Shown in pieces: positions 5,556-40,973 of a stretch of DNA of 41,186 bases. The position numbers and the translations under genes were made by a program. Source of the stretch: a virus; the IMG/VR virus record IMGVR_UViG_3300027706_000262, positions 1 through 41,186 of that record; one strand, 5' to 3'. Each line of letters begins with the position of its first letter. Positions within the stretch are counted from its first letter, which is position 1. The notes beneath the pieces are model-generated. The model saw only the letters and a program-made list of their open reading frames with translations, did no database searches and had not been told where the DNA came from.

Positions 5556-5803
5556 TGCAGATCGGAAGAGTGGAAGGATGCACTCGTGTTTGCGGTAAAT
5601 CCCAAGGCTATCTCGGTTTGCCAATCCGCGACGAGATCGTGAATTGTCCCGTTAACGGTCCTGGCACTCCGCAAATGGTGAGTGCCTGGATTCCGACACC
5701 GGCCGAGCTCGAAGCGCTGAATAAAGGCGCTCCTGTTCACGTAATTATTCTCGGTTCAACCCCGCCTCCAATGCTGGTCGAAATCGGGGAGGTGCCGCGA
5801 TGA
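5555..5803 (+). CDS. Hypothetical early protein
   Basis: 82 residues, beta-rich, not recognised. The segment AWIPTPAELEALNKGAPVHV then IILGSTPPPMLVEIG is reminiscent of small phage proteins that carry a WxPTPEEL-type motif, but no function is known to me. It starts at ATG 5555-5557 overlapping the previous stop (TAATG) and ends overlapping the next ATG (ATGA). Confidence 0.6.
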   Translation: MQIGRVEGCTRVCGKSQGYLGLPIRDEIVNCPVNGPGTPQMVSAWIPTPAELEALNKGAPVHVIILGSTPPPMLVEIGEVPR

Positions 5804-7272
5804 CGACCAGGGATCCGCGGCCGGCTCTTCGGCCGGTGCACGAACTTGCAAGGATGTTTCCGAAGATCGCGGCCGACCAAAAACGCGAGTTCTTCGAATC
5901 GATCGCGCGGGACGGTGTGCGGCGCCCGATCGTACTCTTCGACGATTCATCGCTCGCGCCCATCCTCGACGGCGTGAACCGCTATGAGGCGGCCTGCGCC
6001 GCCGGTATCCCGGAAACCGAGATCCCGTTCCGTATCTTCGGCTCGGAAGAAGGCGACGGCGACGATCCGCTCGAATTCGTGATGCGCGAGAATTTCCTGC
6101 GGCGGCAGCTCAATGCCTCGCAGCGCGCGATGGTCGCGGCCGATATCGAGTCTTTCAAGCATGGCGGCAACCGCAAATCATCGGAAGCGCAGGGCGATGG
6201 TCAAGATGCAAATTTGCATCTTGACCTAGGAACGACCCGCGCCGAGGCGGCCGAAAAAACTGGCGTTTCAGTCCGATCCGTGGCGTCGGCAGCCGAAATC
6301 AAGGCAAAGGGCAGCGGTGAGCTGCAGGAGGCCGTGCGCGACGGCCGGATCAAGCTCGCATCCGCAGCCGAGCTCGCCGAGCTGTCGCACGAAGAGCAGC
6401 GCGAGATCGTGGCGAAGGGCCCGAAGGAAATTCTCGCCAAGGCCAAGGAGATCCGCGCGACCAACATGCAGGAGCGGCGCAAGGCCGCGATCGACAACAT
6501 CAAGAGAATTACCGAAGGGAATACACCGCTGCCGACCGGCGAGAAAGTTCCGGTGCTCTATCTCGATCCTCCGACGCGGTTTGAATCCGGCTTCACCGAT
6601 CGCTCGATCGAGAACCATTACCCGACGATGGATTTTGACCAGCTCGCGGTGCTGCCGATCGATGATCTGGCGGCCGACGATTGCGTGATGTTCTGCTGGA
6701 CGACAATCCCCTGGCTCGCGAATACGATCAAGCTCGCCGAGGAACATTGGGGCGGGTTCGAATACAAGTCCTGCTACGCCTGGGACAAGGAAGTCGCCGG
6801 CACCGGCTATTGGGCGCGAAACCAGCACGAGCTGCTGCTTGTTTTTACCCGCGGGAAGATTCCGTCACCGCCCAGGAGCGCGCTCTATCCCTCGATCGAG
6901 CGATCGAAAAAGCGAGAGCATTCCCGCAAGCCAGATTTCTACTTCCGGATGATCGCCGAATACTATCCGGAACTCCGAAAGATGGTGCTCTTCCATCGCG
7001 GCGCAGCGCCGCACGGCTGGGAAGCATGGGGCAATGAAGTCGAAACCGCCGACGATGGCGTCGACGTCATCGACAAGCTGAAAGCCCCTGAACCGAAACA
7101 GCAAACGCTAGCTGAAGCCGCGCTCGCGGCGATCGAGAAAGACAAGTGCAAGAAAGGCTGTAGCCCTGCGCCGACTGGCGTTGAGGCCATCGATGCGTGT
7201 TTTCCCGCAAGCAAGCAAGACGATCTCGACATTCCCGATTTCCTGCGCCGGACGCCAGAAGCTGTCGCATGA
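5800..7272 (+). CDS. ParB-like domain fused to MT-A70 adenine methyltransferase
   Basis: 490 residues. Residues 1-105 are a ParB-type domain (PVHELARMFP, PIVLFDDSSLAPILDGVNRY), residues 105-235 are helical with an HTH-like repeat region, and residues about 245-420 are an MT-A70-type SAM methyltransferase (VPVLYLDPPT at 250-259, ENHYPTMD, YKSCYAWDKEVAGTGYWARN, QHELLLVFTRGK, HSRKPDFYF, GWEAWGNE). Related phage enzymes methylate the N6 of adenine in DNA. The catalytic motif is normally DPPW; here it is D256-P-P-T259, with the aromatic residue replaced by Thr, so activity is uncertain. All other family landmarks are present. The C-terminal 70 residues are linker-like. ATGA overlap at the start. 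Confidence 0.85.
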   Translation: MTTRDPRPALRPVHELARMFPKIAADQKREFFESIARDGVRRPIVLFDDSSLAPILDGVNRYEAACAAGIPETEIPFRIFGSEEGDGDDPLEFVMRENFLRRQLNASQRAMVAADIESFKHGGNRKSSEAQGDGQDANLHLDLGTTRAEAAEKTGVSVRSVASAAEIKAKGSGELQEAVRDGRIKLASAAELAELSHEEQREIVAKGPKEILAKAKEIRATNMQERRKAAIDNIKRITEGNTPLPTGEKVPVLYLDPPTRFESGFTDRSIENHYPTMDFDQLAVLPIDDLAADDCVMFCWTTIPWLANTIKLAEEHWGGFEYKSCYAWDKEVAGTGYWARNQHELLLVFTRGKIPSPPRSALYPSIERSKKREHSRKPDFYFRMIAEYYPELRKMVLFHRGAAPHGWEAWGNEVETADDGVDVIDKLKAPEPKQQTLAEAALAAIEKDKCKKGCSPAPTGVEAIDACFPASKQDDLDIPDFLRRTPEAVA

Positions 7273-7298
7273 ATTTCATCCTCAACAGGAGTCACACC

Positions 7299-9128
7299 AT
7301 GAACCATCCGCATGAAGTTCCGCTTTCGAGACTGAAATACGATCCGGCAAATATTCGACAGGCAGGCCGCGGCTCCGAGCCGATCTACAAGGCCTCGCTG
7401 ATGCAAAAGGGACAGATTGCACCGCTGATCGTTCGGCCTGCAGGCGACGGCGTCGATTATCTCGTGACAGATGGCGGCAAGCGGCTCGCTTCCTTCGCCG
7501 AGCTCGCCCAGGAAGGCGCGATCAAAGAAGATCATCTCATCAAGATCGAGGTGCGCGAGGAAGACGAAAAGGCGGCGCGCGATACGAGCTTGGCAACAGC
7601 GATCGTGCACACGGAGGCACATCCAGTCGACGTCTACGAGGCCTTCGCGCAGCTCCGGAAGGACAAGGTCTCCGACGACGAGATCATGAAGCGGTATAAT
7701 CTGGGCCGCCGGCAGTTCAACCAGACGATGGCACTCGGCAATCTCGCGAAGCCCATCCGCGATGCCTGGCGCAATGGCGAGATAAAAGCCGACATCGCCA
7801 AAATCTTCACGATCGAGCCCGACGCCGACAAGCAAGAGAGCGCATTTAAGGCGCTCAAGAAATCGGGTGGCATATCGTCCGAATACTCGGTGCGCGAGAA
7901 GCTGAGCAAGTCCGATGAACGGGTATCGAGCTTGGTCAAGTTTGTCGGCGTCGAAGCGGTTCGCGCAGAAGGCGGAAAGGTCAACGAGGATCTATTCGGC
8001 GACGATCACCAGACCAAGGATGTGAAGCTCGTAGAGCGGCTGGCCTTCCGACGTCTCAACGACGAATGCAATCGGCTCAAAGCCGAAGGCTGGTCATGGG
8101 CGCTTCCCGAGGAAGATCTGCCGACCAAGCCCAATCACTGGCGCAACTGGCAGAAGATTCCTTTCAAGGAGCAGTACACGGCCGAAGAAAAGAAGCGACT
8201 CGACGAGATTGATGAGCTCACGAATTGGGATCGCGACGATGTCATCCGCGCTGAACAGGACGCAGCCGAGCGCGAGGGCGAGAAAATCCAAATGCAGGCG
8301 CGGGCGCGTTCCTACAAGCCGGAAGACAAAGCGAAATCGGGCTGCATCGTCTCGATCGACGAGAAGGGCGATCTCGAGATCGAGTACGGGGTCATCCGGC
8401 CGAAGGAAGCGCCGGTCGAGGCGGTAAAGGCGAAAAAGCTTTCACCGGCCGAGCAAAAGGCCGCCGAGAAAAAGGCGAAGGAAGAAGCGAAGAAGCGGGC
8501 CGATTCTAAAACCACCATCCCATACGATTTGAAGCACCGCCTTTCCGAGACGCTCACCCGCGCGGCCGCGAAGGCGGTCGAGCTCGACGTCGACCTGGGC
8601 ATGGAAATCCTGATTGCGGGGCTGATGAGTGAGGGCGAGCCCTACCAGGAGAAGATCTGTCTGCGCGTTGGCGGTGAACTCGCGGATGACATCATTAGCG
8701 GCGCTGAATTCGCGGAAATGTTGAAGCGGGTGCAGAAGCTCTCGCCGAAACAGAAGCTCGCAGCGCTCGCGAGGCTCGCAGGCGCAAGCTTCAGTTTCCT
8801 TCATAGACAAGGCGGCGAGCCGCCGCTCGAGCATCCAGACGTTATCGCGGTTCTGCGCGCGATCGAGCCGCGGGACTTGGAGAAAAGTCTGCAATCCGAA
8901 TTCAACGCCGCAGACTATTTCAAGACCGTCTCAAAGGCGCTCTGCCTGCGCGCGATCCGCGAGGCGCTCGGTCCCGACCAGGCCAAGCAGCTCGCCGAAA
9001 AGAGTGCCGCGGATATCCAGAAATTCACTATAGCGAAGGTGCCGTCGACGGGCTGGCTGCCGCCTGAATTGAGAACGTCAGCCTACACGGGGCCGACAGG
9101 AAAATCCGAAAGCAAGAAGAAAGTCTAA
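7299..9128 (+). CDS. ParB/RepB-type DNA-binding protein
   Basis: 609 residues from the ATG at 7299-7301, chosen because AGGAG (7287-7291) lies at proper distance; a coupled ATG at 7269 would add ten residues. Residues 1-95 are a ParB N-terminal domain (VPLSRLKYDPANIRQAGRG, PLIVRPAGDGVDYLVTDGGK), then the KorB/ParB-like HTH region (AHPVDVYEAFAQLRKDKVSD, RRQFNQTMALGN). Residues about 395-440 are a highly charged coiled coil (PAEQKAAEKKAKEEAKKRAD). This layout is common in plasmid and phage ParB-family proteins. In phages such proteins may regulate transcription or act as plasmid-style partition factors; no ParA is present here. Confidence 0.8.
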   Translation: MNHPHEVPLSRLKYDPANIRQAGRGSEPIYKASLMQKGQIAPLIVRPAGDGVDYLVTDGGKRLASFAELAQEGAIKEDHLIKIEVREEDEKAARDTSLATAIVHTEAHPVDVYEAFAQLRKDKVSDDEIMKRYNLGRRQFNQTMALGNLAKPIRDAWRNGEIKADIAKIFTIEPDADKQESAFKALKKSGGISSEYSVREKLSKSDERVSSLVKFVGVEAVRAEGGKVNEDLFGDDHQTKDVKLVERLAFRRLNDECNRLKAEGWSWALPEEDLPTKPNHWRNWQKIPFKEQYTAEEKKRLDEIDELTNWDRDDVIRAEQDAAEREGEKIQMQARARSYKPEDKAKSGCIVSIDEKGDLEIEYGVIRPKEAPVEAVKAKKLSPAEQKAAEKKAKEEAKKRADSKTTIPYDLKHRLSETLTRAAAKAVELDVDLGMEILIAGLMSEGEPYQEKICLRVGGELADDIISGAEFAEMLKRVQKLSPKQKLAALARLAGASFSFLHRQGGEPPLEHPDVIAVLRAIEPRDLEKSLQSEFNAADYFKTVSKALCLRAIREALGPDQAKQLAEKSAADIQKFTIAKVPSTGWLPPELRTSAYTGPTGKSESKKKV

Positions 9129-9169: not shown

Positions 9170-10072
9170 ATGAACAAACATTCGGAAGTAAAAAGTGAGA
9201 AATCAGTTCTGGTGAAAGCAGATCCTAACCTGCCTGCATTCGTAGTTTCGGGCGCATCAGCCATCGCCATCAAGGCAGGTACGATTTTCAACGGCGTAAA
9301 ATTTTCGGGAGACACGCCGATTGCTCCTCCGGAGGGAGGCTTCGTTCCCGGCACCGACTATTATGTCTGGCTCAAAGATGGCGCCCCACTCTGCGAAAAA
9401 GCCAAGGTTAGTAGCCTCGATCAATTGATCGGCGGCTTCCATTTCGCGCCCGGCGGCAATGCGACCGAGCGCAAAGGCGGTGACGAGACGCCGGCGATCA
9501 ATCCCTATTCCGCATGGGACATCAATTTCCATCCCGCCTGTGAAGATCCGCGCGGAATGACACTCGTCGAAATGTTCGGCGAGAAATTCTGGTGCGACAT
9601 CTATCTGCTCGGCGCCGATCACAACAAGGATGGTACCAGCAAGTTCGGCGTTCGGATCGCCGACGGTGACGAGCCTCCCGTCAAAATCGATGATGGCGTT
9701 TTCGATAATCTCGATTACGCAACCGCCGTCCAGGTGATGAAGGATCACGGGAAACAGCTTCTCAGCGTGACCGAATTCTCCGCGGCCGCTTATGGCGTGA
9801 AGGAAAGGTCATCTGCCGACAAAGACCCCAAGAAAACGAAGCTGGACGCTCCGCGCACCAGCAAGTTCGGCGTGATGCAGGCGACCGGCAACATGTGGGT
9901 GTGGGGTCACGACGGTGACCCCCACGAGCCGCGCGCGAGCCTCTTCGGCGGTTCCTGGCTCAACGGCTCGAACGCGGGCTCGCGCTACGCGCACGTGGCC
10001 TACCTCTGGCCGGGGTACTCGAGCGACTCTCTCGGGGCGCGCGGCCGCAGTGACCACCTGCAGCTTGTTTAG
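9170..10072 (+). CDS. DGR variable protein (C-type-lectin-like, Mtd-type)
   Basis: 300 residues, start supported by TTGGAG (9155-9160). The C-terminal part has the formylglycine-generating-enzyme/C-type-lectin look of DGR target proteins: LLSVTEFSAAAYG, MQATGNMWVWGHDGD, PRASLFGGSWLNGSNAGSRY, then a terminal GARGRSD. The last 43 codons lie in the variable repeat (9927-10054). Compared with the template, nine residues differ: L258, L264, H275, L279, G282, Y283, S285, S287 and L288, all at adenine-containing codons, chiefly AAC, AAT and ATC. The N-terminal 230 residues are beta-rich and Mtd-like, suggesting a receptor-binding or virion-surface protein. It lies in the early region, far from the tail genes. 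Confidence 0.9.
   Translation: MNKHSEVKSEKSVLVKADPNLPAFVVSGASAIAIKAGTIFNGVKFSGDTPIAPPEGGFVPGTDYYVWLKDGAPLCEKAKVSSLDQLIGGFHFAPGGNATERKGGDETPAINPYSAWDINFHPACEDPRGMTLVEMFGEKFWCDIYLLGADHNKDGTSKFGVRIADGDEPPVKIDDGVFDNLDYATAVQVMKDHGKQLLSVTEFSAAAYGVKERSSADKDPKKTKLDAPRTSKFGVMQATGNMWVWGHDGDPHEPRASLFGGSWLNGSNAGSRYAHVAYLWPGYSSDSLGARGRSDHLQLV
9927..10054 (+). repeat. DGR variable repeat (VR)
   Basis: This 128-bp stretch at the 3' end of the variable-protein gene aligns without gaps to 10483-10610 (constant offset of 556). There are 12 mismatches, at 9937, 9941, 9959, 9992, 10004, 10005, 10014, 10016, 10023, 10028, 10029 and 10031; each is an adenine in the template (six to C, three to G, three to T). The last 21 bp (10034-10054) are invariant and GC-rich, as expected for the initiation of mutagenic homing (IMH) region. 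Identity stops at 10055. Confidence 0.97.
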
Positions 10073-10091
10073 CCGCCGCGACAGCGGCGGC
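10072..10091 (+). promoter_or_regulatory. DGR target hairpin with GACA tetraloop
   Basis: GCCGCCGC (10072-10079) and GCGGCGGC (10084-10091) form a perfect 8-bp stem with loop GACA (10080-10083), 17 bp beyond the end of the variable repeat and starting on the last base of the stop codon. In BPP-1 a hairpin of about 8 bp with a GRNA tetraloop downstream of the IMH is needed for efficient retrohoming; GACA fits GRNA. The short T-run after it (CGTTT) means it could also act as a weak terminator. Confidence 0.85.
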
Positions 10092-10107
10092 GTTTGAACA
10101 ACCCAAG

Positions 10108-10479
10108 ATGACGATCGTCAGGGACGAAAATTCCAGCACTGAAGGCTTGGCGATCGTCGAGAAATATGAGGCATTTGTGACCTATCTCTACCCGATCTTG
10201 CAAACATGCCCACGCAAGCACGGCGTCCTTCGGGACGTCGTGCTCGGCGCGATGTTCGTGACGATCGGGGATCTCCATCACGCATCGAAATCGCGGCAGG
10301 TATCGCGGCTTTACTCCGTCGACGCCCAGTTCGCGACGTTGCGTTCACATCTGCGCTTTCTGGAACACATTCATGTGATTTCGCCAAAGCAACGGACGGC
10401 GGCGCTCACGCTGCTCGCCCAGCCTGGCGGAATGCTGAATTCGTGGATCGGAAAGCTCAGGGGGCAAGCGGGGAAGTGA
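10108..10479 (+). CDS. avd: DGR accessory variability determinant (Avd)
   Basis: 123 residues, the usual size of Avd proteins. The sequence reads as a four-helix bundle of the 23S-rRNA-intervening-sequence-like fold: IVEKYEAFVTYLYPILQTCP, KHGVLRDVVLGAMFVTIGDL, YSVDAQFATLRSHLRFLEHI and a final helix with MLNSWIGKL. It is known that Avd forms a basic pentamer that binds the RT and template RNA and is required for cDNA synthesis in BPP-1. It lies between the variable-protein gene and the template repeat, the standard DGR order, and its stop codon overlaps an ATG that opens the template-repeat frame (TGATG at 10477-10481). The ribosome site is weak. Confidence 0.9.
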   Translation: MTIVRDENSSTEGLAIVEKYEAFVTYLYPILQTCPRKHGVLRDVVLGAMFVTIGDLHHASKSRQVSRLYSVDAQFATLRSHLRFLEHIHVISPKQRTAALTLLAQPGGMLNSWIGKLRGQAGK

Positions 10480-10482
10480 TGC

Positions 10483-10610
10483 AGCCGCGCGCAAGCATCT
10501 TCGGCGGTTCCTGGATCAACGGCTCGAACGCGGGCTCGCGCTACGCGAACGTGGCCTACAACTGGCCGGAGAACTCGAACGACAATATCGGGGCGCGCGG
10601 CCGCAGTGAC
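10483..10610 (+). repeat. DGR template repeat (TR)
   Basis: The invariant template copy of the variable repeat, 4 bp after the avd stop. It has 26 adenines, 12 of which are changed in the current variable repeat; no other base differs. Adenines cluster in AAC, AAT, GAG and ATC codons when read in the frame of the variable protein, the typical design for substituting surface residues. In this frame it is open and continuous with the downstream RT frame. Confidence 0.97.
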
Positions 10611-10808
10611 GACCGGATTATGACTCGGCGCGTACCACGGTCGCGCCGGTCGGCCACAGAGGCAATTCCTCTCGATCAAGATCGGTGGTCAGCCCGCGTG
10701 TCCCGCTTCGGCGAAGACACTGCGCGGTCCGGCATAGCGGGGCGTAGGCCGAATCTCTCGGGATGTGGTTCGAGACCCGCGGCCGGCTTTCTTTTCAACG
10801 AGCACTTC
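10611..10808 (+). ncRNA. 3' spacer of the DGR template RNA
   Basis: 198 bp between the template repeat and the best RT start codon. In BPP-1 the RNA downstream of the template repeat is bound by RT and Avd and primes cDNA synthesis, so this stretch is likely part of the functional template RNA. This is inference from position. It contains several GC-rich complementary segments but no other gene is convincing; the RT-frame reading is open but arginine/serine-rich. Confidence 0.55.
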
Positions 10809-11807
10809 ATGGCAAAACGGTATCGGAATCTGATCGGGCAAATCGCTTCGCCCAGAAACATGCTGCGCGCCTATCAGCTGACAGCGCGCGGAAAGCGACT
10901 ATCGCCTGGATATCTCGATTTCAAGGAATACGACGCTCTGAATCTCGACGAGCTGGCGCGCGAAATGCGGAACGGCACATACGTCGCAGGCGAGCCTCAT
11001 GAATTTTATATCTTCGATCCGAAGCGCAGGCTGATCTCAGCACTTCCATTCCGCGATCGCGTCGCACAACAGGCGATCTGTATCATCCTTGGCCCGATTT
11101 TCGATAGGGCGATGCTGCCACGAGCATTTGCCTGTCGCGAAGGCAAAGGAACGCACGCCGGCGTCCGGCTCCTGCAGAGCGACTTGCGTCATCTCACTCG
11201 TTTCACCGAGAGTTGCTATTTTCTGAAAACGGATTTCTCCCGCTATTTCGCATCGATCGAGCTGCCGACACTATGGAAGCTGATCGAGGCAAAGATTTCA
11301 TGCCGCGCCACCTTGCGCGTTCTTGAAGCCATGATTCCACGGCAGGGGATCGGGTTGTCGATCGGCAGTCTGACGTCACAGATCTTCGCCAATTACTACA
11401 CAGGTGCGACGCTCGACCGGCATCTGCAGCAAACGCTCGGCGAAAAGCACTGGTACCGCTACATGGACGACCTGGTCGTTCTCGGCACCAGCTCCGAGCA
11501 TCTTCGCAAGCTGAAGAATGAGATCGAGCGCTACTCGCGCCATCACCTATACCTTCGATTTTCGAAGTGGCAGATCGCGCCTATATCGCGCGGCATCAAT
11601 TTCCTCGGCTATCGCATCTGGCCCACTCACAAATTGCTTCGTCGGGCCAGCGTGACGCGCGCGCGGCGAAAACTCGCCTCATACCGCGCTGCCGGCGATC
11701 GTGAACGTGAACGTCGTTTCTTGGCTGCGTGGATCGGCCACGCGAAGCATGCGGATGCCGCCAATTTAATGCGCAGCCTCGACATTCAATCGAAGGAAAC
11801 GCGCTGA
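10809..11807 (+). CDS. DGR reverse transcriptase
   Basis: 332 residues from the ATG at 10809, close to the length of the BPP-1 RT. Retron/group-II-like RT motifs are in order: an early FYIFDPKRRLISALPFRDRV segment, CYFLKTDFSRYFASI with the first catalytic Asp, IGSLTSQ at residues 185-191 (DGR RTs have SQ where other bacterial RTs have SP), and YMDD at residues 218-221, then FSKWQIAPISRGINFLGYRI. It copies template RNA into adenine-mutagenised cDNA with Avd. The open frame extends upstream through the template repeat to an ATG at 10479 coupled with avd, so an N-terminally extended product cannot be excluded. No strong ribosome site precedes 10809. The stop overlaps the HNH gene ATG. Confidence 0.95.
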   Translation: MAKRYRNLIGQIASPRNMLRAYQLTARGKRLSPGYLDFKEYDALNLDELAREMRNGTYVAGEPHEFYIFDPKRRLISALPFRDRVAQQAICIILGPIFDRAMLPRAFACREGKGTHAGVRLLQSDLRHLTRFTESCYFLKTDFSRYFASIELPTLWKLIEAKISCRATLRVLEAMIPRQGIGLSIGSLTSQIFANYYTGATLDRHLQQTLGEKHWYRYMDDLVVLGTSSEHLRKLKNEIERYSRHHLYLRFSKWQIAPISRGINFLGYRIWPTHKLLRRASVTRARRKLASYRAAGDRERERRFLAAWIGHAKHADAANLMRSLDIQSKETR

Positions 11808-12238
11808 TGCCGATACGCGCGGAAAACAAGGCACGTTACCCGAAAGATTGGGCCGAGATCTCGGCCCGAATCCGCGCGCGCGCGAAGAACAAATGCGAAG
11901 AATGTGGCATCGAAAATTATAAACTCGGCGGCCGCACGCCGGACGGCAGGTTTTTCGAAGCATTGCCAACCGTCGATAACGGGCTGAGGCTGACCTGGCC
12001 ACAACCAGGCGAAATGGCCTCGTGCGAAGGATCAAAGCATAAGCTGCGCGTCATCAGGATTGTGCTCACCGTCGCGCACCTGGATCACCAGCCTGAAAAC
12101 TGCGCCGATGACAATCTGAAAGCGCTCTGTCAGCGCTGCCACAATCGCTACGATCGTGCTGCTCGCGTTGCCGGCGTTAAAGCGCGGCGTAGGCAGGCCT
12201 GCGCGATCGGCGATTTCTTCGAGGAGCAAGCACGCTGA
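11807..12238 (+). CDS. HNH endonuclease coupled to the DGR RT
   Basis: 143 residues. A first zinc pair is C30-E-E-C33, and the HNH core is LTVAHLDHQPENCADDNLKA followed by LCQRCHNRYD, giving the H-N-H pattern with a second CxxC pair. It should be a metal-dependent nicking or cutting nuclease. Its ATG overlaps the RT stop (TGATG), so it is translated with the RT, and its stop overlaps the next ATG. HNH genes are common and mobile in phages, so the neighbourhood may be fortuitous, but coupling to a DGR RT raises the possibility that it nicks DNA for DGR homing. That is a hypothesis. Confidence 0.85.
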   Translation: MPIRAENKARYPKDWAEISARIRARAKNKCEECGIENYKLGGRTPDGRFFEALPTVDNGLRLTWPQPGEMASCEGSKHKLRVIRIVLTVAHLDHQPENCADDNLKALCQRCHNRYDRAARVAGVKARRRQACAIGDFFEEQAR

Positions 12239-40875: not shown

Positions 40876-40897
40876 CCGGCCGATTGGCGTCGGCCGG
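40876..40897. other. Inverted repeat in the 3' intergenic region
   Basis: CCGGCCGA (40876-40883) and TCGGCCGG (40890-40897) form a perfect 8-bp stem with a 6-nt loop. It lies in the 190-bp gap between the last late gene and the convergent small gene. There is no T-tract; its role is unknown. It could be part of a transcript end, a regulatory RNA or an attachment site. Confidence 0.4.
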
Positions 40898-40931
40898 GGC
40901 ATGCCCTCCTTGGGCGTTTCCTCCCTAAACT

Positions 40932-40966
40932 TGGCCGCTCTCCGCGAGGGGAGCGGCCATTTTTTT
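40932..40966 (+). terminator. Strong terminator ending the late operon
   Basis: A 12-bp stem (40932-40943 with 40948-40959, one T-G pair) closed by a GCGA tetraloop and followed by seven T (40960-40966). It lies between the converging late operon and the 40974-41186 gene. Confidence 0.92.
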
Positions 40967-40973
40967 GGATGGA

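Follow-up and report, generated by a model that had tools for sequence, protein, structure and literature searches.

A diversity-generating retroelement (DGR) in the 41,186-nt stretch of viral DNA analysed here (the window) carries an open frame that starts at the stop codon of avd, runs through the template repeat (TR) and the spacer RNA, and enters the reverse transcriptase (RT) gene in phase. The frame recurs across a clade of related DGRs, and it is reasonably likely that the template and spacer RNA of this clade double as a translated frame connecting avd with the RT, either as a fusion or through an ATGA stop-start, and that translation and template use of one RNA are thereby coupled, which may provide feedback on RT synthesis. 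With high confidence, the element is a BPP-1-type DGR of a temperate tailed phage integrated at an alphaproteobacterial tRNA-Gln gene. The DGR proper is one well-formed alphaproteobacterial addition to a known class and an ordinary machine for rewriting a binding protein.

The full DGR lies at 9170-11807 on the plus strand of the window, in the order variable gene, variable repeat (VR), hairpin, avd, TR, spacer RNA and RT. The original prediction had claimed a complete DGR, and this claim held; every defining part was found, in the gene order of BPP-1. The prediction had extended the element to 12238, which was not borne out, as 11807-12238 is an HNH ORF that has no DGR-adjacent counterpart in relatives and was therefore rejected as a DGR part. 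Three features are additions to that prediction: the Rfam Phage_DGR RNA, the absence of an N-terminal domain from the target protein, and the frame that TR, spacer and RT share. The HNH endonuclease ORF overlaps the RT stop codon (TGATG). No such RT was found in the one other genome of the same genus that was examined.

The open frame is a single one of 442 codons (10479-11807, plus strand). Its ATG overlaps the avd stop codon (TGATG), and it reads the TR in the frame of the VR and continues through the spacer RNA into the RT. For the frame tests, 80 more loci were collected, and the clade, delimited by an RT identity of 60% or more, was dereplicated to 59 loci. All 59 have, at the avd stop, a start codon that is in frame with the TR; in 52 of them the start and stop codons overlap. 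The RT follows the avd stop at 31 different distances, from 308 to 635 nt, yet the TR/spacer frame enters the RT in phase in 51 of the 59 loci. The other eight are phase-shifted; their frame reaches or nears the RT start, and in seven of them its stop codon and the RT start codon share an ATGA. The A after the RT start codon that enables ATGA is found in 12 of the 51 in-frame loci versus the seven of eight shifted loci using ATGA (p = 0.001; because the loci are related, p-values are guides only, and the control interval and control frames described below are the better argument).

It is conceivable, although we consider it unlikely, that this is an ordinary BPP-1-type DGR whose open frame arose by chance from high GC, the coding origin of the TR and conserved RNA sequence. 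Shuffled spacers do stay open 42% of the time, but the phase is kept through many length changes: among 26 path-disjoint pairs of unequal length, 20 keep the TR-to-RT phase, whereas the phase of the control interval from VR to avd is kept in nine of 26, which is the chance level. On the RT tree, 7 phase changes were counted per 48 length changes, compared with 26 per 49 for the control interval. Stops in the spacer point in the same direction. None of 49 loci has a stop in the RT frame, while 22 were expected under a null that samples bases within alignment columns and treats the columns as independent (the lowest of 300 runs gave 13); the 49 leave out L056 and L092, which have a spacer stop. 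The other two spacer frames fit this null, with stops in 30 loci versus 30.5 expected and in 47 versus 46.6. A chance frame also leaves the start codon at every avd stop and the ending of shifted frames on the RT start unaccounted for. It agrees better with the three of the 59 loci that break the frame before the RT (L056 and L092, genuine exceptions whose stop lies within the spacer, and L059, where the frame ends 13 nt short of the RT) and with the unconstrained amino acids of the spacer. Furthermore, BPP-1 works without this arrangement, and the RT start of some members comes with a good Shine-Dalgarno motif; both points also speak against translation through the TR.

A second alternative, which we regard as doubtful and less probable than a chance frame, is that most RT is produced as a TR-RT fusion, in which a fixed lectin fragment that is not mutated, together with a linker, forms an N-terminal part with its own function. 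The long frame in the window, the in-frame fusion in most loci of the clade and the alignment of the whole fusion with PHROG 1423 agree with this. However, the spacer does not look like a conserved protein. Its differences are distributed over the three codon positions as 0.37/0.28/0.35, compared with 0.24/0.23/0.54 in the RT, and no third-codon-position excess, the test used for protein constraint, was found in the spacer. Because the differences are even over codon positions, the encoded peptide is not conserved as a protein, which argues against a conserved fusion domain. Moreover, the RT start codon (ATG, GTG or TTG) is retained in 51/51 in-frame loci, so initiation at the RT's own start codon probably still yields the short RT form. 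The loci with an ATGA stop-start are unfused (7/59), and the solved bRT of BPP-1 begins at the short-form methionine. A longer TR-RT fusion form is possible beside the short one. The codon at position 1 of the RT is TTG or GTG in the fused-frame members L049, L012, L039, L080, L081 and L084.

The simplest reading is that selection acts for uninterrupted translation from avd to the RT, and not for a fusion domain; we infer this from the sequence comparisons above. Ribosomes thus quite likely pass through the template RNA, which would couple RT synthesis to avd translation and protect the long leader. A fusion protein, protection from polarity, and feedback by RT-Avd while bound to the spacer are each possible. 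Mutagenic retrohoming by DGRs is established for BPP-1. By the same steps, a transcript of the avd end, TR and spacer would be bound by RT and Avd, and the RT would copy the TR, inserting random bases opposite adenines. The cDNA would then replace the VR, guided by the initiation of mutagenic homing (IMH) site and the downstream hairpin, and as many as about 15 codons in the gene for a lectin-type binding protein could be re-drawn. The passage of ribosomes through TR and spacer would tie RT synthesis to avd translation. Since RT-Avd binds the same RNA, the bound complex might, speculatively, block further RT synthesis. If the frame result holds, it is no longer adequate to regard a DGR's TR and spacer RNA as simply untranslated; the timing of RNA copying and the amount of RT would then be controlled by ribosome traffic. 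This would give a testable handle on the regulation of DGR activity, which is poorly understood.

BPP-1 (mtd-avd-TR-brt) is the closest characterised relative, and its bRT is characterised biochemically and structurally. The two systems share the gene order, an RT that is 51% identical, Avd, an Mtd homologue, the RF03022 RNA, a hairpin with a GRNA loop and the IMH difference. They differ in the open frame: in BPP-1 the avd stop is not accompanied by a start codon, and the TR-frame ORF ends 31 nt before brt in another phase. The arrangement is absent from the more distant DGRs whose TR frame is known (BPP-1, L022, L100 and L103-L106). TRs that overlap an annotated RT ORF were noted as a class in 2012, as structural group 3 of DiGReF (PMC3521204); as in the window, the TR lies within the longest RT-containing ORF. 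The part of that paper describing the groups judges the spatial arrangement irrelevant to the mechanism, and its description of group 3 does not report reading-frame selection or coupling to avd. The fused frame aligns with the PHROG 1423 RT family at profile positions 4-435, indicating that long RT calls exist in annotations; PHROG 1423 is a family of annotated proteins and says nothing on which start is used. Translation through the TR, if true, would explain the spurious-looking lectin-like N-terminus annotated on RT genes of this group. DGR surveys cover the class well (PMC8144416, PMC3521204, PMC6642488). The literature searched, with most subscription papers outside the reach of the search, yielded no paper on selection for the frame or on translation through a TR, and a translated TR/spacer frame leading into the RT seems not to have been described previously.

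The VR (9927-10058) and the TR (10483-10614, with 27 adenines) were identified on the plus strand by repeat comparison and are 90% identical. The original prediction had the right pair but set its ends slightly short, at 9927-10054 and 10483-10610; each repeat is 132 nt long. They differ at 13 of the 132 positions, 12 of which face a TR adenine that is changed to C, T or G (Fisher p = 6e-9), and the remaining one is a G to C change at 10611/10055, where the IMH at the 3' end of the VR differs from the IMH* of the TR, seen also in most relatives. Nine amino-acid replacements at adenine sites result from these differences; a further change is silent and another falls in the IMH site. This agrees with the nine or more rewritable positions that had been predicted. 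The bias is general in the group: in 18 TR/VR pairs from 17 loci, counted without the last 24 nt of the repeats, 191 of 378 template adenines are changed, compared with 4 of the 1504 non-adenine bases. The VR is the only other copy of the TR, and no second VR was found elsewhere in the genome. Two loci, L002 (1977-2879 and 4316-5251) and L004 (1875-2768 and 4309-5199), each have two mtd paralogues and one TR, and the differences in both VRs are mostly or only adenine-facing. Since no non-adenine difference exists outside the IMH in the window, the last rewriting of the VR was probably recent. VRs are identical within groups of near-identical relatives in the clade, so no VR turnover was seen. 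Current activity of the DGR is plausible, and a decayed remnant that has lost its mutating ability, which would suit this lack of variation among near-identical relatives, is very improbable, as all ORFs are intact, non-adenine differences are absent outside the IMH, and the RNA and the hairpin are conserved.

The RT read from its own ATG (10809-11807, plus strand) has 332 amino acids and matches bRT and phrog_1423. The predicted YMDD and SQ-type motif 4 were seen in it as RYMDD and IGSLTSQ. The original prediction had named a grouping with retrons or group II introns as counter-evidence. The nearest match was the bRT of BPP-1 (PDB 8ub7; E = 2.3e-106, 51% identical) and not a retron or group II intron RT, and the next-best matches were group II intron RTs (best E = 1.3e-7). 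The accessory gene avd (10108-10479, plus strand) encodes 123 amino acids and matches NF033474, PF22296 and phrog_3206; the score against NF033474, an NCBIfam equivalog, is 92.6 bits versus a cut-off of 80. The DGR spacer RNA (10658-10787, plus strand) was identified as Rfam RF03022 Phage_DGR with 69.4 bits (gathering threshold 50), and this RNA is also present in BPP-1 and in all 11 relatives tested. A hairpin downstream of the VR had been predicted as well, and it was located at 10072-10091 on the plus strand. This hairpin or cruciform begins 13 nt past the VR and has an 8-bp GC stem (GCCGCCGC/GCGGCGGC) and the loop GACA, which fits a stem of 7-10 bp with a GRNA loop. In BPP-1, a hairpin after the VR with an 8-bp stem and a GRNA loop is required (PMC3240598). 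Hairpins were found in 14 of the 18 VRs examined; in relatives the stems vary on both sides, and the loop remains GACA, GGCA or GGAA.

The variable gene (9170-10072, plus strand) encodes an Mtd homologue of 300 amino acids that consists of the beta-sandwich and C-type lectin parts. It matches PF21916 (mtd_2nd) above the cut-off, Mtd in PDB 1yu0-1yu4 with E of about 1e-50 over chain residues 54-380, and the tail protein family phrog_11262 from profile position 69. The homology to Mtd spans the lectin domain, and the VR lies at the C-terminus. The protein starts at about the equivalent of Mtd residue 50, and the clade alignment shows that the N-terminal 43-50 or so residues of Mtd, the beta-prism domain, are missing in the window and in its relatives; an in-frame stop one codon before the gene start is present in the window and several relatives. 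The target therefore does not have the three domains of Mtd. The beta-prism presumably anchors the Mtd trimer on the tail fibre (PMC10743442), and its lack, as read from the alignment, is a clade-level departure from the BPP-1 target. A second difference from BPP-1 is the location of the gene, which is not beside tail genes but among ParB-like and methylase genes upstream of the terminase. A ParB-like protein of 619 amino acids (7269-9128, phrog_7783) is encoded directly before it, following an ORF that joins a ParB-like domain to an MT-A70 methyltransferase (5800-7272). We infer a receptor-binding role for the variable protein. An AlphaFold model from 11 sequences was poor (pLDDT 46) and added no independent support for the lectin assignment.

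The window corresponds to G000:C141:2785-43970 and thus to part of a contig of 44,272 bp in a metagenome-assembled genome. An imperfect 28-bp repeat at contig positions 86-113 and 44110-44137 represents the 5' portion of a tRNA-Gln(CTG) gene, which is complete at the right end, and a phage integrase (phrog_1) adjoins the left repeat. Between the repeats lie genes for terminase, portal, head protease, major head, connector, tape measure, J-like tail proteins, endolysin and a repressor-like HTH protein. The att repeats, integrase and phage genes together indicate an integrated tailed phage of about 44 kb, with the window wholly inside it, and the element is most likely a complete prophage. This agrees with the phage origin that had been predicted. 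The attL and attR sites (L018:86-113 and L019:311-384) lie in the 5' half of tRNA-Gln(CTG), and the phage restores the complete gene at the right end. The host was assigned by genome kinship. A genome of the same family (G039, L023) lies within a Xanthobacteraceae record (L015), which points to an alphaproteobacterial host; this and the RNA family mmgR bear out the host group originally proposed. An alphaproteobacterial sRNA of the mmgR/suhB type (RF00519, 62 bits) was found at 40896-40973, in the prophage near attR. A second, higher-scoring copy of RF00519 is present on contig C185 of the same genome, suggesting that the phage has its own version of a host sRNA.
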